Below, piece after piece: positions 31,101-41,275 of a stretch of DNA of 46,668 nt (its first letter is position 1; every line of letters starts with the position of its first letter). Source of the DNA: Candidatus Methanoperedens nitratireducens. Its GTDB lineage: Archaea > Halobacteriota > Methanosarcinia > Methanosarcinales > Methanoperedenaceae. The stretch is from positions 8,938-55,605 of the forward strand of contig NZ_JMIY01000005.1 of NCBI RefSeq assembly GCF_000685155.1, in the 5' to 3' direction. The translations under genes were made by a program, and so were the position numbers. Under the pieces are notes generated by a model that had not been told where the DNA came from, did no database searches, and was given only the letters and a program-made list of their open reading frames with translations.

Positions 31101-32111
31101 TCAGACCACGATATTCAAAAGGTTGAAGATTTTATAGACAACAAAGCCACCGAACGTGGTTACAGGGATTGTTAAAATCCATGCAGCAACAATATTGCGT
31201 GCAAAACCCCAGCGAACACTGGTCATGCGTTTTGCCGCACCTACCCCCATTATTGAGCCAGCGATAACATGCGTGGTACTTACCGGGATCCCGATGAATG
31301 CGGTCAGTACAAGAAGCAATCCTCCACCCGATTCTGCACTGAACCCATCCACGGGCCTTAATTTTGTTAGCCTCATACCCATGGATCTTATGACCTTCCA
31401 TCCGCCTATTAAAGTTCCAAGTGCGATCGATGCATGCGCTGATAGAATTACCCATGCGGGAATGGCCGCGTCTGGATCCATATAACCCACAGAGATCAAC
31501 AATGCAGTGATAATGCCTGCTGTCTTCAGGGCATCATTAGAGCCATGGCCAAGCGAATACCAGCTCACAGAGACCAATTGAAGTTTTCCGAATACCTTAT
31601 TAATGGCGGATGGCCGATACCTTCGGACCGATCGGAATAATCCAATAGCAAATATATTTGAGAATATAAAGCCTATAATCGGGGCGAGTACAAGAAATCC
31701 TATAATTAGAATTATTCCTCCTGAAATAAGCACTTTAAAACCACCGGCTGCAATACCTGCGCCTATAAAACCTCCTATCAGCGTATGGCTCATCGAGATG
31801 GGCATGCCAAAATTCGTCATAAACATACCCCAGAAAATGGATGCGACCAGCCCTGCCAGGATCAATGTCGGTGTAACGATAGAAACATCAACGATCCCCT
31901 TTCCCACCAATTTTGCCACTGCCTGCGGCATAATTAAAAAGGCGATGAAATTCATTAGCGCAGCTAAACCTACGGCTTTTATCGGTGTCAGTACCCTTGT
32001 TGATACTATGGTCGCCACGGAGTTTGCCGCATCGTTCCAGCCGTTCACAAAATCATAGAACAATGCTATGATTATTATCAAAATGACCGTTATACTCAGA
32101 GCCTCAACCAT
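31101..32111 (-). CDS. pit: Inorganic phosphate permease PiT
   Basis: This 336-residue membrane protein has about ten helices. The duplicated PiT signature is clear: FYDFVNGWNDAANSVATIVS near the N terminus and YSLGHGSNDALKTAGIITAL in the second half, with MSHTLIGGFIGAGIAAGG and VSTTHVIAGSIMGVGAAKRM as the paired 'TH' segments. PiT symports phosphate with H+ or Na+ and works at high phosphate. It follows its DUF47 partner by 35 bases, a widespread pairing. Confidence 0.95.
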   Translation of the reverse strand: MVEALSITVILIIIIALFYDFVNGWNDAANSVATIVSTRVLTPIKAVGLAALMNFIAFLIMPQAVAKLVGKGIVDVSIVTPTLILAGLVASIFWGMFMTNFGMPISMSHTLIGGFIGAGIAAGGFKVLISGGIILIIGFLVLAPIIGFIFSNIFAIGLFRSVRRYRPSAINKVFGKLQLVSVSWYSLGHGSNDALKTAGIITALLISVGYMDPDAAIPAWVILSAHASIALGTLIGGWKVIRSMGMRLTKLRPVDGFSAESGGGLLLVLTAFIGIPVSTTHVIAGSIMGVGAAKRMTSVRWGFARNIVAAWILTIPVTTFGGFVVYKIFNLLNIVV

Positions 32112-32146: not shown

Positions 32147-32776
32147 TTAGCTATTTTTAACGACTATATCGCTGATAACGTTTGCAGCATCCTCGCATTT
32201 GTCCGTTGCAAACTCAAGGCGCTCATACACCTCTTTCAGTTTCATAATCTCAATGGCATCCGTTCGTTTAAAAAGTTCTGCAACAGACATCTTATAGATA
32301 TCATCTGCAATATTCTCAAGTCTGTTGACCTCAATACACTTTTTTTCTATTTCCTTCGGGTTCTTGATGTTACGTAAACTGGAAATTGCATTATCCAGTT
32401 CAGTGGTCTGCCTGACAAGCACCTCGGCCAGCTTTATCATGTTCTCTTCAGGTTTTTTGATATCGTACAGAACAAGGCGAGTTGCAGTGCCGTCGATATA
32501 ATCCAGAACATCATCAAATGCCGAGGCAAGTGCAGATATATCCTCATGATCGATTGGAGTTATGAAGGCTTTATTTAGCTCTTCAAAGATCTCATGAACA
32601 AAATCATCTCCCTGGTGCTCGATATCTTTTATGGTCTGCTGTTTTTCTCTTATGTTCTCATAATTTTTAAGCATTTCAAGGAAAGCAATTGAGCCATCTA
32701 GTACGTTTTTTGATTCATTCTCCAGCATATTAAAAAAGTGTTTATCCCGGGGAAGAATCCATTCTTTAAATCCCAT
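32147..32776 (-). CDS. DUF47/PhoU-like phosphate transport accessory protein
   Basis: This 209-residue, all-helical DUF47 protein (TIGR00153 type) starts MGFKEWILPRDKHFFNML and has the two metal-cluster helices DIEHQGDDFVHEIFEELNKA and VNRLENIADDIYKMSVAELF plus a PhoU-like DHEDISALASAFDDVLDYID. The family partners PiT transporters and is thought to control them. I chose ATG 32776 with GGAG about 10 bases ahead; the longer frame runs into the phoU gene and is not supported. Confidence 0.9.
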   Translation of the reverse strand: MGFKEWILPRDKHFFNMLENESKNVLDGSIAFLEMLKNYENIREKQQTIKDIEHQGDDFVHEIFEELNKAFITPIDHEDISALASAFDDVLDYIDGTATRLVLYDIKKPEENMIKLAEVLVRQTTELDNAISSLRNIKNPKEIEKKCIEVNRLENIADDIYKMSVAELFKRTDAIEIMKLKEVYERLEFATDKCEDAANVISDIVVKNS

Positions 32777-32871
32777 GTTTTTCAATCTCCGTTGCTCTAA
32801 TGTTCTAATCAGGTTACAGTAACTTCTGGTTTTTATGTCTTTCTGTTTTTTTGTCAAACTATAATTAATAA

Positions 32872-33525
32872 TTAATTTAATTCCACCCTCTCGCCTGCTG
32901 CCATGAAAACCGTACTTTCGCATAGATTATTTGCATGGTCCCCTATCCGCTCAAGATATCTCGCCACGAACGTGAGATGTGAGGCGTTAGTTATTTTCTT
33001 CGGGTCTTCTATCATATAAGTTATAAGTTCGCGCCTTATCTGGTCAAAGAGGGCATCTACTTCATCATCCCTCCTAGCGATTCTTCGTGCAAGCTCAGCA
33101 TCACAGGTCTCAAAAGCTCTCATCGCGCCTTCGATCATCTCCTGGCATATGCTGGACATCCTTGGTATATCCACAAGCGGCTTGATATGGGGCTCTCTTG
33201 CAGTAGCCTTTGTTATCACTGCTATCTCAAGGGCAAGATCCCCTATTCTCTCAAGGTCGATGATAATTCTGAGCACAGCGGCTATCATCCTAAGATCCCT
33301 GGCCATGGGCTGCTGGAGGGCAAGCAGGGCAAGACAGGAATCCTCTATCTGATGCTCCAGGGAATCAATATCTTTATCCATTGCTATTACCTTCTCAGCA
33401 AGCTTGACATTTCGTTCTTTTAATGCTACTACAGAATCCCTTACCGCTATCTTTGCGAGTTCTCCCATTCTCAGTGTGCCATCCTTTACTTTATTTAATT
33501 CCCTGTGATACTGCTCTCTGGCCAT
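32872..33525 (-). CDS. phoU: PhoU phosphate signalling protein
   Basis: This 217-residue protein has two PhoU three-helix units with the metal-binding E(x)3D motifs: ALQQPMARDLRMIAAVLRII with DLERIGDLALEIA, and ITNASHLTFVARYLERIGDH with ANNLCESTVF. PhoU reports phosphate status through PstB and, in bacteria, a histidine kinase; none is encoded here. Its ATG overlaps the pstB stop as TAATG, so it closes the pst operon. Length and start ([15 protein letters not shown]) are normal. Confidence 0.95.
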   Translation of the reverse strand: MAREQYHRELNKVKDGTLRMGELAKIAVRDSVVALKERNVKLAEKVIAMDKDIDSLEHQIEDSCLALLALQQPMARDLRMIAAVLRIIIDLERIGDLALEIAVITKATAREPHIKPLVDIPRMSSICQEMIEGAMRAFETCDAELARRIARRDDEVDALFDQIRRELITYMIEDPKKITNASHLTFVARYLERIGDHANNLCESTVFMAAGERVELN

Positions 33526-34271
33526 TATCCAAACCTCCCTGTTATATAATCCTCAGTGCTTTTTTCCCTGGGCTTTTTGAATATCTGTTTGGTATCACCG
33601 AATTCTATCATTTCACCCATCAAGAAAAATGCAGTAGAATCAGAGACCCTTGCTGCCTGCTGCATATTATGCGTCACAATAACGATTGTATATTTTTCCT
33701 TAAGATCGATCATTAGATCCTCTATCTTGCTCGCAGAAATAGGATCTAAAGCTGAGCATGGTTCATCAAACAGGATAATCTCAGGTCCCACGGCCAATGC
33801 TCTGGCTATGCAGAGGCGCTGCTGCTGTCCACCGCTTAATTCCATGGCATTATCATTGAGCCTGTCCTTGACTTCATTCCAGAGCGCCGCTTTTTTGAGG
33901 CTGGATTCTACAATTGAATCGAGTTCTCTCTTATTTATCCCGTGTATCCTCGGCCCGTAGGCTATATTCTCGTATATGCTTTTGGGGAACGGGTTTGGCT
34001 TCTGAAAGACCATACCAATCTTTTTTCGAAGCGCTACAGGATCTGTATCCTTTATATCTTTGCCGCGGATCAGGATCTCGCCCTCGGTACTGAAACCATC
34101 TATCAGATCGTTCATCCTGTTAAGGCAGCGTATGAATGTGGATTTTCCGCAGCCACTGGGGCCTATTATTGCCGTTATTTTGTTGTTCTCCACGGTCATG
34201 TCAATGTTCTTCAAAGCATGAGTTTTTCCGTACCATGCGTTCAAGTTAGTTGTATGTATGGCTTCTGTCAT
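33525..34271 (-). CDS. pstB: Phosphate ABC transporter ATP-binding protein PstB
   Basis: This 248-residue ATPase has Walker A in [20 protein letters not shown], the PstB-specific [20 protein letters not shown], signature in [20 protein letters not shown], Walker B in [15 protein letters not shown] and H-loop in [15 protein letters not shown]. It powers high-affinity phosphate import with PstA and PstC. It lies 4 bases after pstA and one base into phoU. Confidence 0.97.
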
Positions 34272-34275
34272 TTAA

Positions 34276-35118
34276 TTACCACTTAATGTACCTCTGGTAT
34301 TTATTCCGTATGATTATGGCAGCAGCATTCATGGCAAGGAGCAGTGCAAGGAGCACTAGAATCCCTGCTGCTGCAAGGAACTGGAATTCTGCTTTTGGTC
34401 TTGATGCCCAGTTGAATATCTGTATGGGCAGTGCTGTAAACGGATCAAATGGACCTGCAGGAGTGAAGGCTATGAATGTGAGGGCGCCGATCATGATCAG
34501 CGGGGCAGCTTCGCCCATGGCTCTTGATAGGGAAAGGATATTGCCTGTGAGTATTCCTGGCAATGCGGCAGGAAGCACATGGTGTCTTACGGTCTGCCAT
34601 TTTGTAGAACCAAGAGCATATGAGGCCTCGCGTATGGATTTAGGCACTGCTCTAATTGCTTCCTGGCTTGAAATAATAATTATTGGCAGGATAAGGAGTG
34701 CCATTGTGAGTGCACCAGCCAGCAGGCTTCTTCCAAGCATTAATCCCCTGACAAACAGGGCAAGACCAAGAATGCCGTAAACAATGCTGGGTACACCTGC
34801 AAGATTGGAGATATTGATCTCTATTATCCTTGTAAGCCACGTTCTCCTTGCATACTCTTCAAGGTAAATTGCAGCGCCTACACCAAGAGGTATTGAGATT
34901 ATGGCCGTGAGAATCATAAGCCAGATAGAGCCCCAGAGAGCTGATTTTATCCCTGCCTGCTCAGGAAAACGCGACGGAAAGCTGTTAAGGAATTTCAAGC
35001 TGAGCCAGCCTGCGCCTTTATCCCATGCATCCCACATGAGCAGGGCTAAGAGCATAAGGGCAATTACCGTGGCTGCCATGCAGAGATATTTAAAGGCCTC
35101 TCCTTTAATATACCTCAT
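34276..35118 (-). CDS. pstA: Phosphate ABC transporter permease PstA
   Basis: This 280-residue permease has six predicted helices. The PstA coupling motif is [20 protein letters not shown] followed by [23 protein letters not shown] 35118 is preceded by GGAGGTG and overlaps the pstC stop as ATGA; the longer frame from 35151 starts with GTG inside pstC and is not favoured. It sits between pstC and pstB as usual. Confidence 0.95.
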
Positions 35119-36074
35119 GAGTACACCTCCCTGTACCTCTCTTTTATCCACATGCTTACAATGTTCATGAGCAGCGTCATTATAAAAAGTACCATTCCGA
35201 CAGCGAATATGGTTTGATATTCTATACTGCCGTGGGGCGTATCTCCCAGGCTCACCTGGACTATGTAAGCGGTCATGGTCTGGATGCTCTCAAAGAAATT
35301 CAGCGTCATCTTGGGTGTAGCACCTGCGGCTAAGGTGACAGCCATAGTCTCGCCTACTGCTCTTGATATGGCAAGTACAAAAGAGGCAAGGATGCCAGAG
35401 AGTGCAGCCGGGACTACAATCTTTGTGGATACATCAAACCGGGTTGAACCTAAAGCATACGCACCTTCGCGCAGGCTTCGCGGCACCGAACGCATGGCAT
35501 CCTCACTTAAGCTTGAGACCATTGGCAGTATCATTATGCCTACTACAATGGAAGCAGATGCGGCATTGAATATATTGGCATCAGGTATGAACTCACGAAT
35601 GAGCGGGGTTATGAAGCTTATAGCAAAGTAACCATACACAACCGTGGGTATGCCAGCCAGGATCTCAAGCACAGGTTTCACTGTCTGGCGAACTTTTGCA
35701 CTGGCATATTCGCTGAGGTATACGGAGCTGGCTATGCCTAAAGGAATAGCAATTACCGCAGCACCTGCCGCAATCATAATAGTGCCGTTTATCAGAGGAA
35801 GCACGCCGAAATGCTGGGGGCGGTACGTGGGTGCCCAGGTTGTACCTGTGAGAAACTCAAGTATAGGGACTTCTTCAAAAAAGGATAAGGTCTCAAAAAT
35901 GAGAACAAGCACGATCCCTATGGTGGTTAAAACCGAGACAAGGGCGCAGAGAAAGAGAGCTTTCTCGATGGCAAGTTCCCTGATTCTCTGCATCCTCAGT
36001 CTATCTAACTTTATACTGTGAAAAAATTCAGAGAGATATGGTATATGACCCCTCTGTATCCTCAGTCTATCCAA
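35115..36074 (-). CDS. pstC: Phosphate ABC transporter permease PstC
   Basis: This permease has six helices. The coupling motif is [20 protein letters not shown] with [20 protein letters not shown]. The open frame starts at TTG 36074 (319 residues), but its first 27 residues come from a duplicated DNA segment (LDRLRIQRG then LDRLRMQRI). A more natural start is ATG 35993 (292 residues, [15 protein letters not shown]), with a TATAAAG box about 25 bases ahead, which suggests a leaderless message. The gene lies 52 bases after pstS. The function is sure; the start is not. Confidence 0.93.
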
Positions 36075-36126: not shown

Positions 36127-37050
36127 TTATCCGAGCCTGTTCAATCCTTCCTCATACACCGATTCAGGCATCTTCACATAGCCCACCTGAGATACAAGCT
36201 CCTTTCCCTCGGTGAGGTAGTATTTTACGAATTCCTTTACCTCAGGGCGCTTCAGGGATTCTTTATTGACATAAATGAACAGCGGTCTTGATAGTGGGTT
36301 ATAGGTGCCGTCATTGATTGTCTGCTCAGATGGAAGAACTGGTCCTTTACCGCCATCTATTGCTACCAGCTTCAGCTTGCCGGGATTTTCAACATAGTAT
36401 GCATAGCCAAAGTATCCGAGAGCATTTTTCTCTCCTGCAATAGCCTGAACGAGGATATTATCATCCGCACTTGCAGTGTAATCAGACCTGCTGGCTTTCT
36501 CCTCGCCCACTATTGCCTCAGTGAAGTAATCAAAAGTACCTGAATCAGTATCTGCCCCTACAAGGATTATCTTCTCATCGGGCCATTCGGAGCGCACGTC
36601 CTTCCATGTCTTCACAGTGCTGCCGGGCTCCCATATCTTCTTGAGCTCGTCTACTGTAAGATAATCCACCCATGTATTCTGGGGGTTTACCATCACGGAG
36701 AGTCCATCGAAGGCGACTTTGAATTCCTCATAGGTTATGCCGTTCTTGGCACAGAGTTCTTTTTCAGTATCCTTTATTGGTCTTGAGGCATCGCTTATAT
36801 CCGTCTCTCCCGGGCAGAACTTCTTAAAACCACCGCCTGTACCGCTGATACCTACTGTGACCCTTGTATCGGGATATCTATTCTGGAACTCCTCCCCCAC
36901 GGCTTCGCTTATGGGAAATACCGTGCTTGAGCCGTCTGCCTTAATGGTACCAGAGAGCTGGGAGGAGATAGTATCAGCAGGCCTGTCTATGCATCCGGCT
37001 AAGAACACGCCTGCAAGAATCAGAATTATAGTTATTTTAAATCGATTCAT
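36127..37050 (-). CDS. pstS: Phosphate-binding lipoprotein PstS
   Basis: This 307-residue periplasmic-type binding protein has a lipobox ([17 protein letters not shown]) and the PstS ligand motifs [34 protein letters not shown] and [18 protein letters not shown] 37050 gives the natural lipoprotein start, with GGTGAT ahead; the longer frame from 37080 adds only [10 protein letters not shown]. The TATA box lies at about 37084-37096, with the palindromic element 37108-37136 behind it. It leads the pstSCAB-phoU operon. Confidence 0.96.
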
Positions 37051-37107
37051 ACTTGTTATCACCGGCAGCGGATTTATCACCAGATATTATATATCTTCTC
37101 ACAAGAA

Positions 37108-37136
37108 TCTATAGATACTATAGAAAATCAGTAAAA
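37108..37136. promoter_or_regulatory. Candidate Pho-type operator before pstS
   Basis: TCTATAG-ATA-CTATAGA (37108-37124) is a perfect 7-bp inverted repeat. It runs on into AAATCAGTAAAA. The 21 bases 37116-37136 are identical to 38516-38536 before the TIM-barrel gene. It stands about 12 bp upstream of the pstS TATA-like box GATATATAATATC, a suitable place for an activator or repressor. Confidence 0.6.
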
Positions 37137-37267
37137 ATAGCGTAAAAAAATTAAAATTCTGTGTTTTGCAGGGGGCAATTTGATTTATTTAAAAGCACAG
37201 CAACTTGCTGTAGCTGAAATGAAGGCTGTGAAGCAATTTAAAACATACGAAAGTTCTGTCATGAGTT

Positions 37268-37546
37268 TCATCCTCTTATAAATGCAATCTCTATAGAGGT
37301 GAACAGGATATTATTCTGTTCGTCTCTGCCGATTATTCTACCGCTAACTATGAGCTTTTCTGAAGCTATATTTATTCGGTCTCCTATTTTGAAATCTGAT
37401 ATATCTCCCGTAACATGAACTATGCCGTTGTTCAGAGGCTTTAGCCTGATTTCCTGCAGCGTGACATTACTGAGTCTATTATTTAAATAGATTAGAATCC
37501 TTTCAGTTTCTTGGTTAAACATGAGTTTCCCGTACGTAAGACTCAT
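37268..37546 (-). CDS. Small beta-rich protein, unknown function
   Basis: This 92-residue soluble protein looks beta-rich: KLMFNQETERILIYLNNRLS, VTLQEIRLKPLNNGIVHVTG, DFKIGDRINIASEKLIVSGR and a final ILFTSIEIAFI. This could be a PilZ-like or OB/SH3-like barrel, but no family is recognised. GAGGAAGT precedes the ATG. It follows the TIM-barrel gene by 26 bases on the same strand and is likely in its operon. Confidence 0.6.
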   Translation of the reverse strand: MSLTYGKLMFNQETERILIYLNNRLSNVTLQEIRLKPLNNGIVHVTGDISDFKIGDRINIASEKLIVSGRIIGRDEQNNILFTSIEIAFIRG

Positions 37547-37572
37547 AGTACTTCCTCTTTTAGGCTGAAATT

Positions 37573-38463
37573 CTAACGAGCAGATTCAACAGTCTGTTCT
37601 GGATAATATGCTATTACAGGCGTTAACCACTGTAATCCCTTAGTAAATTCTCTGATCTGTGCAAGGCTTTTCAGGGTATCCTCTTTACCTGAATTTTTAA
37701 GTTCAAGGATCAAATTTCTTGCATCGGTCTTTCGGATATTTTTAAATACTTCCCTGAAATTTATCTTTCCAAGTCCTAGAGGAAGGTGGCGGTCCCAAAA
37801 CATTGATTCTTCTGGTTTCATAATACCGAAGTTATCGTGCAGATGGAACTGGTTTATGTATTCACCCAGTTCAAAATAATCATCCAGAGATACCCCATAG
37901 GCATTGGAAGTAATAAATGCATGGCCGATGTCCAGATTTATCTTCAAATGCTCTGAACCTACCGCCTCGATTATATACAAAATTTCCCCCGGAAGCACGC
38001 CAATTTTATTTCTTCCAGCCCTGTCAAACAGGTTCTCTAAGAGAAGAGTGGCGCCATATTCCTCCGCAAGAGCAGATAGGCGAATTAAATTAATAATGCT
38101 CAGATTCCGGCATTTTCTTGAGTCTGTCAGATTGCCCGGATGTATAACTATGTATCTCACTTCTATTTTTGCTGCGATCTTGAGGACCTTTTCCATAACA
38201 GCAAAATTTTTCCTGTCATTCGTTGAGAAATCTACTCTTATTCTCTCGATTTCAGAGTCGCTGTGTGGAGCATGGATCGTAAATCCAACACCAAAAGCAG
38301 AAATAAGCTCTGTAGCTTTTGATAATAGTTCTTTCTCTTTTTCCTCTTCTAAAAAATTCTCATCCAGACCCAGTTCAATAATCTCAACTTCACTGGCGTC
38401 GATTATTCCTCCAAATTCTCTTATTTTTAGGGAGTTGATGCCTATTTTTGGACATTTTTCCAT
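37573..38463 (-). CDS. Sugar-phosphate isomerase/epimerase-like TIM barrel
   Basis: This 296-residue protein belongs to the xylose isomerase-like (AP endonuclease 2) barrels. Metal and substrate motifs in strand order: FTIHAPHSDSEIER, YIVIHPGNLTDS, ATLLLENLFDRAG, INLDIGHAFITSNAYG, INQFHLHDNFG, HLPLGLGKINFREVF and NLILELKNSGKED. The His, Glu and Asp ligands for a divalent-metal site are all present. Actual substrate unknown. The promoter shares a 21-bp element with pstS, which suggests control by phosphate, so a phosphorylated sugar or an endonuclease role is worth considering. Confidence 0.8.
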   Translation of the reverse strand: MEKCPKIGINSLKIREFGGIIDASEVEIIELGLDENFLEEEKEKELLSKATELISAFGVGFTIHAPHSDSEIERIRVDFSTNDRKNFAVMEKVLKIAAKIEVRYIVIHPGNLTDSRKCRNLSIINLIRLSALAEEYGATLLLENLFDRAGRNKIGVLPGEILYIIEAVGSEHLKINLDIGHAFITSNAYGVSLDDYFELGEYINQFHLHDNFGIMKPEESMFWDRHLPLGLGKINFREVFKNIRKTDARNLILELKNSGKEDTLKSLAQIREFTKGLQWLTPVIAYYPEQTVESAR

Positions 38464-38509
38464 AGATTTAAATTGGAGTATATATTCTATATACTTTTTC
38501 CAAATAATT

Positions 38510-38536
38510 TCTATATACTATAGAAAATCAGTAAAA
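38510..38536. promoter_or_regulatory. Candidate Pho-type operator before the TIM-barrel gene
   Basis: TCTATA-TAC-TATAGA (38510-38524) is followed by AAATCAGTAAAA; bases 38516-38536 are identical to those at 37116-37136. A second TTCTATATAC half-element lies at about 38485. The TATA-like AGAATATATACT next to it is 25-35 bases before ATG 38463. Confidence 0.6.
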
Positions 38537-38637: not shown

Positions 38638-39045
38638 TCAAACCTTCTCTGGCGAGTACCTGACAGCCAGAACCCTTATCACTCCAAGCACCAGCAGCAG
38701 CGCCGAAAGTGAGAATACCGTCTCATATCCAAATGACCTTGAGTAAAGCCCGACCGTAATCTCGCGCATGACAATTAAAATCGTGGCATCGGTTATCAGG
38801 GTGAGCTTGATTCTCTCGTGTCTGGAATAGTCAGCAAAGGTCTTGAAAAACTCGATTACAATAAAAAGCGTGAGAACATTTGTAACTATTTTGTGAAAGC
38901 CTCCTTCAATTGAGTCAACCGCAACAAAGCGCATGTCCAGTAAAATCCGCAGCATACCTGCTATGAGCGCAAGTAGCAGTACATACAGGATAACGGTAAC
39001 AATGGAATCAGTGATCTTTTTGAAAAATTTTGCATGGTCTATCAT
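38638..39045 (-). CDS. PsiE-family (phosphate-starvation-inducible) membrane protein
   Basis: This 135-residue protein has four predicted helices: IVTVILYVLLLALIAGMLRI, KIVTNVLTLFIVIEFFKTFA, a middle segment LTLITDATILIVMREITVGL, and VFSLSALLLVLGVIRVLAVR. This is the PsiE layout, including the FFKTFADYSRHERIKL loop typical of the family. Function unknown; in E. coli psiE is induced by phosphate limitation. Its ATG overlaps the stop of a 27-residue membrane peptide (ATGA). It lies beside the phosphate transport block. Confidence 0.85.
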   Translation of the reverse strand: MIDHAKFFKKITDSIVTVILYVLLLALIAGMLRILLDMRFVAVDSIEGGFHKIVTNVLTLFIVIEFFKTFADYSRHERIKLTLITDATILIVMREITVGLYSRSFGYETVFSLSALLLVLGVIRVLAVRYSPEKV

Positions 39046-39314: not shown

Positions 39315-39455
39315 TTACTTGGCAGTAAACCCGCCGCGCATGAATATATACAGCTCCTTATCCTCTTTACCCATTTCCTGAAATTCCTCTTTGGGTGAGT
39401 GACGTTTTGCCCCACAGGGTAACATTTTTTCTAAAATTTCCTCCGTCTCTTTCAT
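39315..39455 (-). CDS. Small 46-residue ORF overlapping the glycosyltransferase 3' end
   Basis: It starts MKETEEILEKMLPCGAKRHS and ends KELYIFMRGGFTAK. It overlaps the last 30 codons of the glycosyltransferase ORF in another frame. Its C terminus resembles the start of the next small ORF (39142-39300). It may be the real coding frame here, the glycosyltransferase having been cut short by a deletion that joined it to this gene. Confidence 0.35.
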   Translation of the reverse strand: MKETEEILEKMLPCGAKRHSPKEEFQEMGKEDKELYIFMRGGFTAK

Positions 39456-41139: not shown

Positions 41140-41275
41140 AGATAACTTGATAAAATATATAATCTATATAGAGTTTTGAGTTATTGTATCAAGATAAAAT
41201 AAAAAGTCTATATATTCTATAGTCTAATTCTATAAATATTATTTAGAGTATATAGTTAAAAGTAGAATTAAAAGC
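41140..41275. promoter_or_regulatory. AT-rich intergenic promoter region with repeated CTATA boxes
   Basis: This 183-bp gap between the PHP gene and the TraB relic holds several CTATA elements: AATCTATATAGAG, GTCTATATATTCTATAGTCT (41207-41226) and TTCTATAAATATT. They resemble the TCTATA...TATAGA dyads before pstS and the TIM-barrel gene but lack the shared AAATCAGTAAAA. No gene is seen here. Confidence 0.4.

Follow-up and report, generated by a model that had tools for sequence, protein, structure and literature searches.

In Candidatus Methanoperedens (ANME-2d), to which the named records closest to the present genome belong, pstS and a neighbouring TIM-barrel gene are preceded by a common composite promoter element of about 46 bp, TACTGATWTTHTATAGTATMTATAGATTMTTGGGANAAANTATATA (minus strand). 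This element is likely to be the Pho operator/promoter of Methanoperedens, with a SpoVT/AbrB-PhoU fusion protein as its likely binder, that would switch phosphate-scavenging genes on and repress its own gene.

The composite promoter element

A first-pass annotation of the window (the whole stretch of 46,668 nt analysed here) had reported a 21-bp identity before pstS and the TIM-barrel gene, with a TATA-like box near both copies, and had proposed a candidate Pho operator common to the two genes. The identity is exact (TACTATAGAAAATCAGTAAAA, at 37116-37136 and 38516-38536) and forms the 5' part of the element, the similarity between both copies extending to 49 nt with 82% identity (37088-37136 versus 38488-38536). 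It had been judged unlikely to arise by chance, in agreement with which none of 100 dinucleotide shuffles matched the 21-mer, and the window holds no further match at up to three mismatches. Both genes lie on the minus strand, where the element reads TTTTACTGATTTTCTATAGTA..., and its position 1 (the T of TACTGAT) stands 83 nt before the ATG of pstS (37050) and 70 nt before that of the TIM-barrel gene (38463). The TATA-like box is indeed present at a fixed distance in both copies:

37088-37136, minus strand: candidate Pho operator/promoter element of pstS, core TACTGATTTTCTATAGTATCTATAGATTCTTGTGAGAAGATATATA from 37133 down to 37088, 69.9 bits
37088-37093, minus strand: TATA box of the pstS element, at the fixed distance
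38488-38536, minus strand: candidate Pho operator/promoter element of the TIM-barrel gene, core from 38533 down to 38488, 54.7 bits
38488-38493, minus strand: TATA box of the TIM-barrel element, at the fixed distance

The scores derive from a 46-bp weight matrix whose training set excluded this genome and its nearest relative; with this matrix, the third site of the genome (see below) reaches 67.3 bits, the next-best position of the window -4.4 bits, and the maximum of Markov-simulated windows -11.2 bits. When the family sites are aligned, the TATATA box occupies positions 41-46, with every base at a frequency of at least 0.91. Positions 29-46, which played no part in site selection, are conserved without insertions or deletions and with a fixed TATA spacing, and conservation is weak downstream of the TATA box. 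This pattern is best explained by an operator of about 35 bp, TACTGATWTTHTATAGTATMTATAGATTMTTGGGA, placed directly against the BRE/TATA box at fixed spacing. The TCTATA..TATAGA dyad that the annotation had singled out is visible at pstS and is not conserved, position 11 being C in 21% of sites. The CTATA boxes upstream of the PHP gene (41165-41226), once viewed as weaker relatives, score -12 bits, i.e. at chance level, and were dropped.

Distribution and target genes

The scans show the reverse of a broadly scattered motif with no tie to phosphate: the element is almost confined to phosphate genes. The 3.2-Mb genome contains exactly three sites: those of pstS and the TIM-barrel gene, and one at C2:472324, on another contig, with at most three mismatches, between an ORF of about 45 aa and a divergent gene encoding the AbrB-PhoU fusion protein. 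Each of three search patterns returned only three sites, and positions 21-46 alone gave the same three, with the places found in the family mostly unchanged. The family was sampled with 34 genomes, 31 of which contained matches to the 21-mer (few matches with the reversed control); a 28-mer consensus found 107 places spread over 32 genomes (none with the reversed control), essentially all at phosphate genes; a 14-mer allowing two mismatches was discarded as too unspecific (48 matches versus 30 in the control). The element is nearly unchanged across about 30 Methanoperedens species, although sites drawn from related genomes are not independent. Outside the family, the order is represented by 152 genomes, in which the 28-mer produced a single weak match, at the three-mismatch limit, so that the element is specific to Methanoperedenaceae within the order.

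The surrounding DNA was retrieved and 104 distinct sites were classified by their downstream gene, 96 of which adjoin phosphate genes or the fusion gene, in support of a Pho operator. The downstream gene is pstS at 31 sites, the small ORF (about 45 aa) at 25, the TIM-barrel gene at 12, a paralog of the fusion gene (AbrB-PhoU2) at 10, PhoU_div before PiT at five and psiE at one, while another 12 sites lack a recognised downstream gene but adjoin the divergent AbrB-PhoU gene. The eight remaining sites include a variant site before an alkaline phosphatase gene (PF00245) in genome G005, three of a TATTGAT subclass (genomes G016 and G027) and two without a recognised target; in our reading, two more stand at the position of the small ORF, whose frame has decayed or diverged. 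The 28-mer matches outside the retrieved loci adjoin, by coordinate, AbrB-PhoU or TIM-barrel genes. The TATTGAT subclass was seen at L249:5508, L250:717 and L251:4126 and 7426, with an alkaline phosphatase behind the L249 site, and in G027 it precedes two related ORFs near an arsC-like low-molecular-weight phosphatase gene. The sites L255:2687 and L157:7751 (G011:C11 and G004:C20:40750) have no recognised gene behind them.

In the window, the following genes are concerned, all on the minus strand:

36127-37050, minus strand: pstS, phosphate-binding lipoprotein (type A; TIGR02136, 329 bits; PF12849)
35115-36074, minus strand: pstC permease (ORF, true start probably internal; homologues in syntenic clusters)
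34276-35151, minus strand: pstA permease (ORF; syntenic clusters)
33525-34271, minus strand: pstB ATPase (ORF; syntenic clusters)
32872-33525, minus strand: stand-alone phoU (TIGR02135, 230.7 bits)
32147-32923, minus strand: PhoU_div (DUF47) accessory protein (PF01865)
31101-32111, minus strand: PiT low-affinity phosphate transporter (PF01384)
37573-38463, minus strand: TIM-barrel protein of the xylose isomerase/endonuclease IV superfamily (PF01261, 110 bits), target of the second element
37268-37546, minus strand: beta protein of 92 aa, encoded next after the TIM-barrel gene
38638-39045, minus strand: PsiE-family membrane protein (PF06146)
39315-39455, minus strand: 46-aa small protein, of a family that normally bears the element; promoter missing here

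The 31 pstS promoters belong to high-affinity phosphate transporter operons of two types. These transporters are non-orthologous (20-30% identity) and share a promoter, with 86% identity across types over 46 bp; directly behind the lipoprotein signal peptide, the identity of the DNA is down to about 0.3. The same promoter on two non-orthologous pst operons makes shared function likelier than shared descent alone. Relatives also carry a pstS promoter with a broken pstS start beside an intact gene (L155:9190-9385 and L155:10389-11442; L174:6714); like the promoter and signal peptide common to both operon types, this hints that operons were exchanged while the promoter stayed in place. In G002 the pstS promoter is duplicated, with a broken pstS start. 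PhoU_div has an element copy of its own in some relatives (G003, G007, G013 and G031).

The TIM-barrel gene, suggested earlier as a possible member of a phosphate regulon, carries an element of its own in 12 genomes, the present one among them, and mostly stands one gene ahead of pstS, which makes it a candidate target that may respond to phosphate. Ten His, Glu and Asp residues of its product are invariant in four orthologues (H64, H67, H108, E143, D178, H181, H209, D210, H226 and E254) and their placement resembles that of the superfamily's metal ligands. Its sole solved sequence relative is the uncharacterised MJ1311 (3wqo), and its predicted structure (mean pLDDT 43) is too poor for use. 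The NCBIfam matches, headed by the phosphodiesterase CbiR, all fall far short of their cut-offs, and a role in phosphate-ester recycling is therefore a mere guess. The 92-aa beta protein is probably co-transcribed with the TIM-barrel gene; it is absent at the corresponding position in relatives, and resembles the middle segment of an HTH-CBS protein of about 295 aa, itself found in nearly all sampled genomes.

In relatives, psiE lies behind the small ORF, whose promoter carries the element, and the small protein encoded by this ORF has a conserved C-terminus (e.g. EDKELYLFLRGGFAAK). In the window, the 5' side of the 46-aa protein gene (39315-39455) joins the end of a glycosyltransferase gene, shortened to 278 aa versus 361 aa in relatives, and its own promoter is lost (compared with L155:7335-7558 and L004:8004-8215); a second copy on contig C2 has its promoter intact.

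The AbrB-PhoU fusion protein and the proposed switch

Which protein reads the element? The gene divergent from the small ORF at the third site encodes a protein of 344 aa that combines an N-terminal SpoVT/AbrB (MazE-like) domain (PF04014, 40.2 bits for a cut-off of 24.7) and a C-terminal PhoU domain (PF01895, 81.4 bits), so that a regulator-like protein with a phosphate-signalling domain adjoins this copy. The E/D motifs of the PhoU domain are kept, with D175, E217 and D221 invariant. The AlphaFold model comprises an N-terminal strand-strand-helix-strand-strand unit, a middle part of alpha/beta type and a PhoU portion built of helices, the latter matching the solved PhoU folds 1t8b and 1t72 (Foldseek, E 1.4e-6 for 1t8b), and an extra alpha/beta segment (about residues 55-130) links the two domains. 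The AbrB part has a pLDDT of about 30-50, a low confidence that is expected because a monomer was modelled and this domain folds as a dimer.

The fusion gene adjoins the element at 24 sampled loci, where the sites are themselves distinctive: position 8 is A at 21 of these 24, against three of 75 others (Fisher P 2e-15, overstated since the species are related). Read from the other strand, this A yields TATAAAATA / TACTATAAAATATCAGTA, which in nearly all cases lies 13-18 nt ahead of the AbrB-PhoU ATG, so that one sequence looks like an operator for one gene and the TATA region for the other. Such a systematic difference again makes shared function likelier than shared descent alone.

These features suggest the following mechanism, in which the element, its spacing, the make-up of the regulon and the neighbouring fusion gene are observed, and binding by the fusion protein, the direction of control and Pi as the signal are inferred. 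The element precedes pstSCAB-phoU, the TIM-barrel gene, the gene of the ~45-aa protein with psiE, in some species the PhoU-like/PiT genes, and also the regulator gene and that of its paralog. The likeliest binder is the SpoVT/AbrB-PhoU protein, whose gene begins 13-18 nt from an element copy on the opposite strand; its PhoU part would sense phosphate status, directly or via the Pst transporter, like bacterial PhoU. When Pi is scarce, the AbrB part, positioned upstream of the TATA box, would aid the loading of TBP/TFB, and the scavenging genes would be switched on. The copy beside the regulator gene overlaps the opposite-strand TATA box; a protein bound there would block the start and so repress the regulator, a negative feedback.

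The sign of this control may be reversed, the fusion protein acting as a repressor at sufficient phosphate that is released as Pi drops, a serious reading that we nevertheless consider somewhat improbable. Conservation is continuous into the BRE/TATA region, so that a bound protein could block TBP/TFB, and PhoU of bacteria acts negatively. Against repression, the operator lies upstream of BRE/TATA with a rigid spacing and nothing strongly conserved past the TATA box, which is where archaeal activators usually sit; moreover, the pho-boxes of Halobacterium salinarum are needed for upregulation, according to PMC6560208. The sequence does not decide between activator and repressor action.

It is unlikely, though less so than the two readings that close this section, that the Pho operator is bound by another transcription factor (e.g. 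one of the winged-helix type, with its gene at another locus), for which the AbrB-PhoU gene would be just one more target. Genes of non-regulators, such as the small ORF and the TIM-barrel gene, adjoin the element too. The fusion protein is spread through the order (present in 144 of 150 genomes, with about 35% identity beyond Methanoperedenaceae) and does not bring the element with it in the other families, so that its specificity must have diverged. One genome (G006, 99% complete) has sites and lacks a close AbrB-PhoU orthologue, but it keeps a 31% identical paralog, which has its own site. The fusion protein also couples a recognised DNA-binding domain to one for phosphate signalling. At the 24 loci mentioned above, its gene lies next to the element, with a site variant shaped for both strands. 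By eye, the AbrB-PhoU upstream regions in other families of the order contain some CTATATAG words near the TATA box, with no shared element established. At one locus from another family (L285:4989-9565), the fusion gene and pstSCA diverge directly from each other across an interval with CTATAG-like words, an arrangement that supports an older connection of the fusion protein to Pst.

If promoter DNA had recently been duplicated on the spot, with no regulatory significance, this would account for an identical 21-mer in copies 1.4 kb apart, with a parallel in the duplicated promoter of G002. Such a duplication is very improbable and was ruled out by the whole-genome and family scans, since 32 genomes carry the element at numerous non-homologous genes and on further contigs (C2 in the present genome), with a fixed TATA spacing and no control matches. 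Even less credible is a general promoter type of the lineage, as could be imagined from the TATA box within the element and from AT-rich CTATATAG-like words near other promoters: the genome scans exclude it, with three sites per pattern in 3.2 Mb and sites confined to phosphate genes.

Relation to known phosphate systems

The closest known system is the haloarchaeal pho-box/PhoU system, likened here by description: pho-boxes upstream of the pst operons of H. salinarum are needed for induction under Pi limitation, and PhoU-family regulators are named (PMC6560208, citing Furtwangler et al. 2010). A conserved upstream box is shared by Pst promoters in both; that of Methanoperedens is AT-rich, spans about 46 bp and is found, within the order, only in Methanoperedenaceae. 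Its candidate binder is a fusion of AbrB and PhoU, encoded by a gene that carries the box itself, in contrast to the haloarchaeal PhoU as described there. Methanosarcina mazei responds to Pi starvation by inducing phoA as well as its two pstSCAB-phoU operons (PMC6864096), with no regulator or operator named for these genes in the available part of that source. This species belongs to the same order (from the genome search), in which AbrB-PhoU homologues are general, whereas the element was not found in the sampled other families.

The bacterial Pho regulon (PhoB/PhoR with Pst-PhoU and the Pho box) follows the same logic, with overlapping targets (pstSCAB-phoU, a psiE-family gene and alkaline phosphatase) and an autoregulated regulator gene, as proposed here. 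It relies on a two-component pair, unlike the one-component fusion that may operate in Methanoperedens, and the element does not resemble the bacterial Pho box when judged by eye. With both domains in one protein of 344 aa, the fusion is neither a classical AbrB regulator nor a classical PhoU. The literature search, whose limited coverage is no proof of absence, returned no paper naming an AbrB-PhoU fusion as a regulator and no operator paper for Methanoperedens Pho genes; nor was a phosphate-response transcription factor of methanogens and anaerobic methane oxidisers named in the literature searched.

The present analysis yields a precise operator, a target list and one candidate regulator, and places the TIM-barrel enzyme and the ~45-aa protein, both hitherto without an assigned function, in a likely phosphate-starvation programme. 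A wider proposal, finely balanced and slightly short of probable, is that Methanoperedens, and on the strength of homology also further families of its order, would control phosphate scavenging through a one-component AbrB-PhoU regulator, a 46-bp element and self-repression via an overlapping TATA box, with a regulon including a new phosphate-starvation protein of about 45 aa and a TIM-barrel enzyme recycling phosphate esters. As a conserved switch stands at phosphate genes, including the gene of the probable regulator itself, phosphate control in Methanoperedens is now directly testable.
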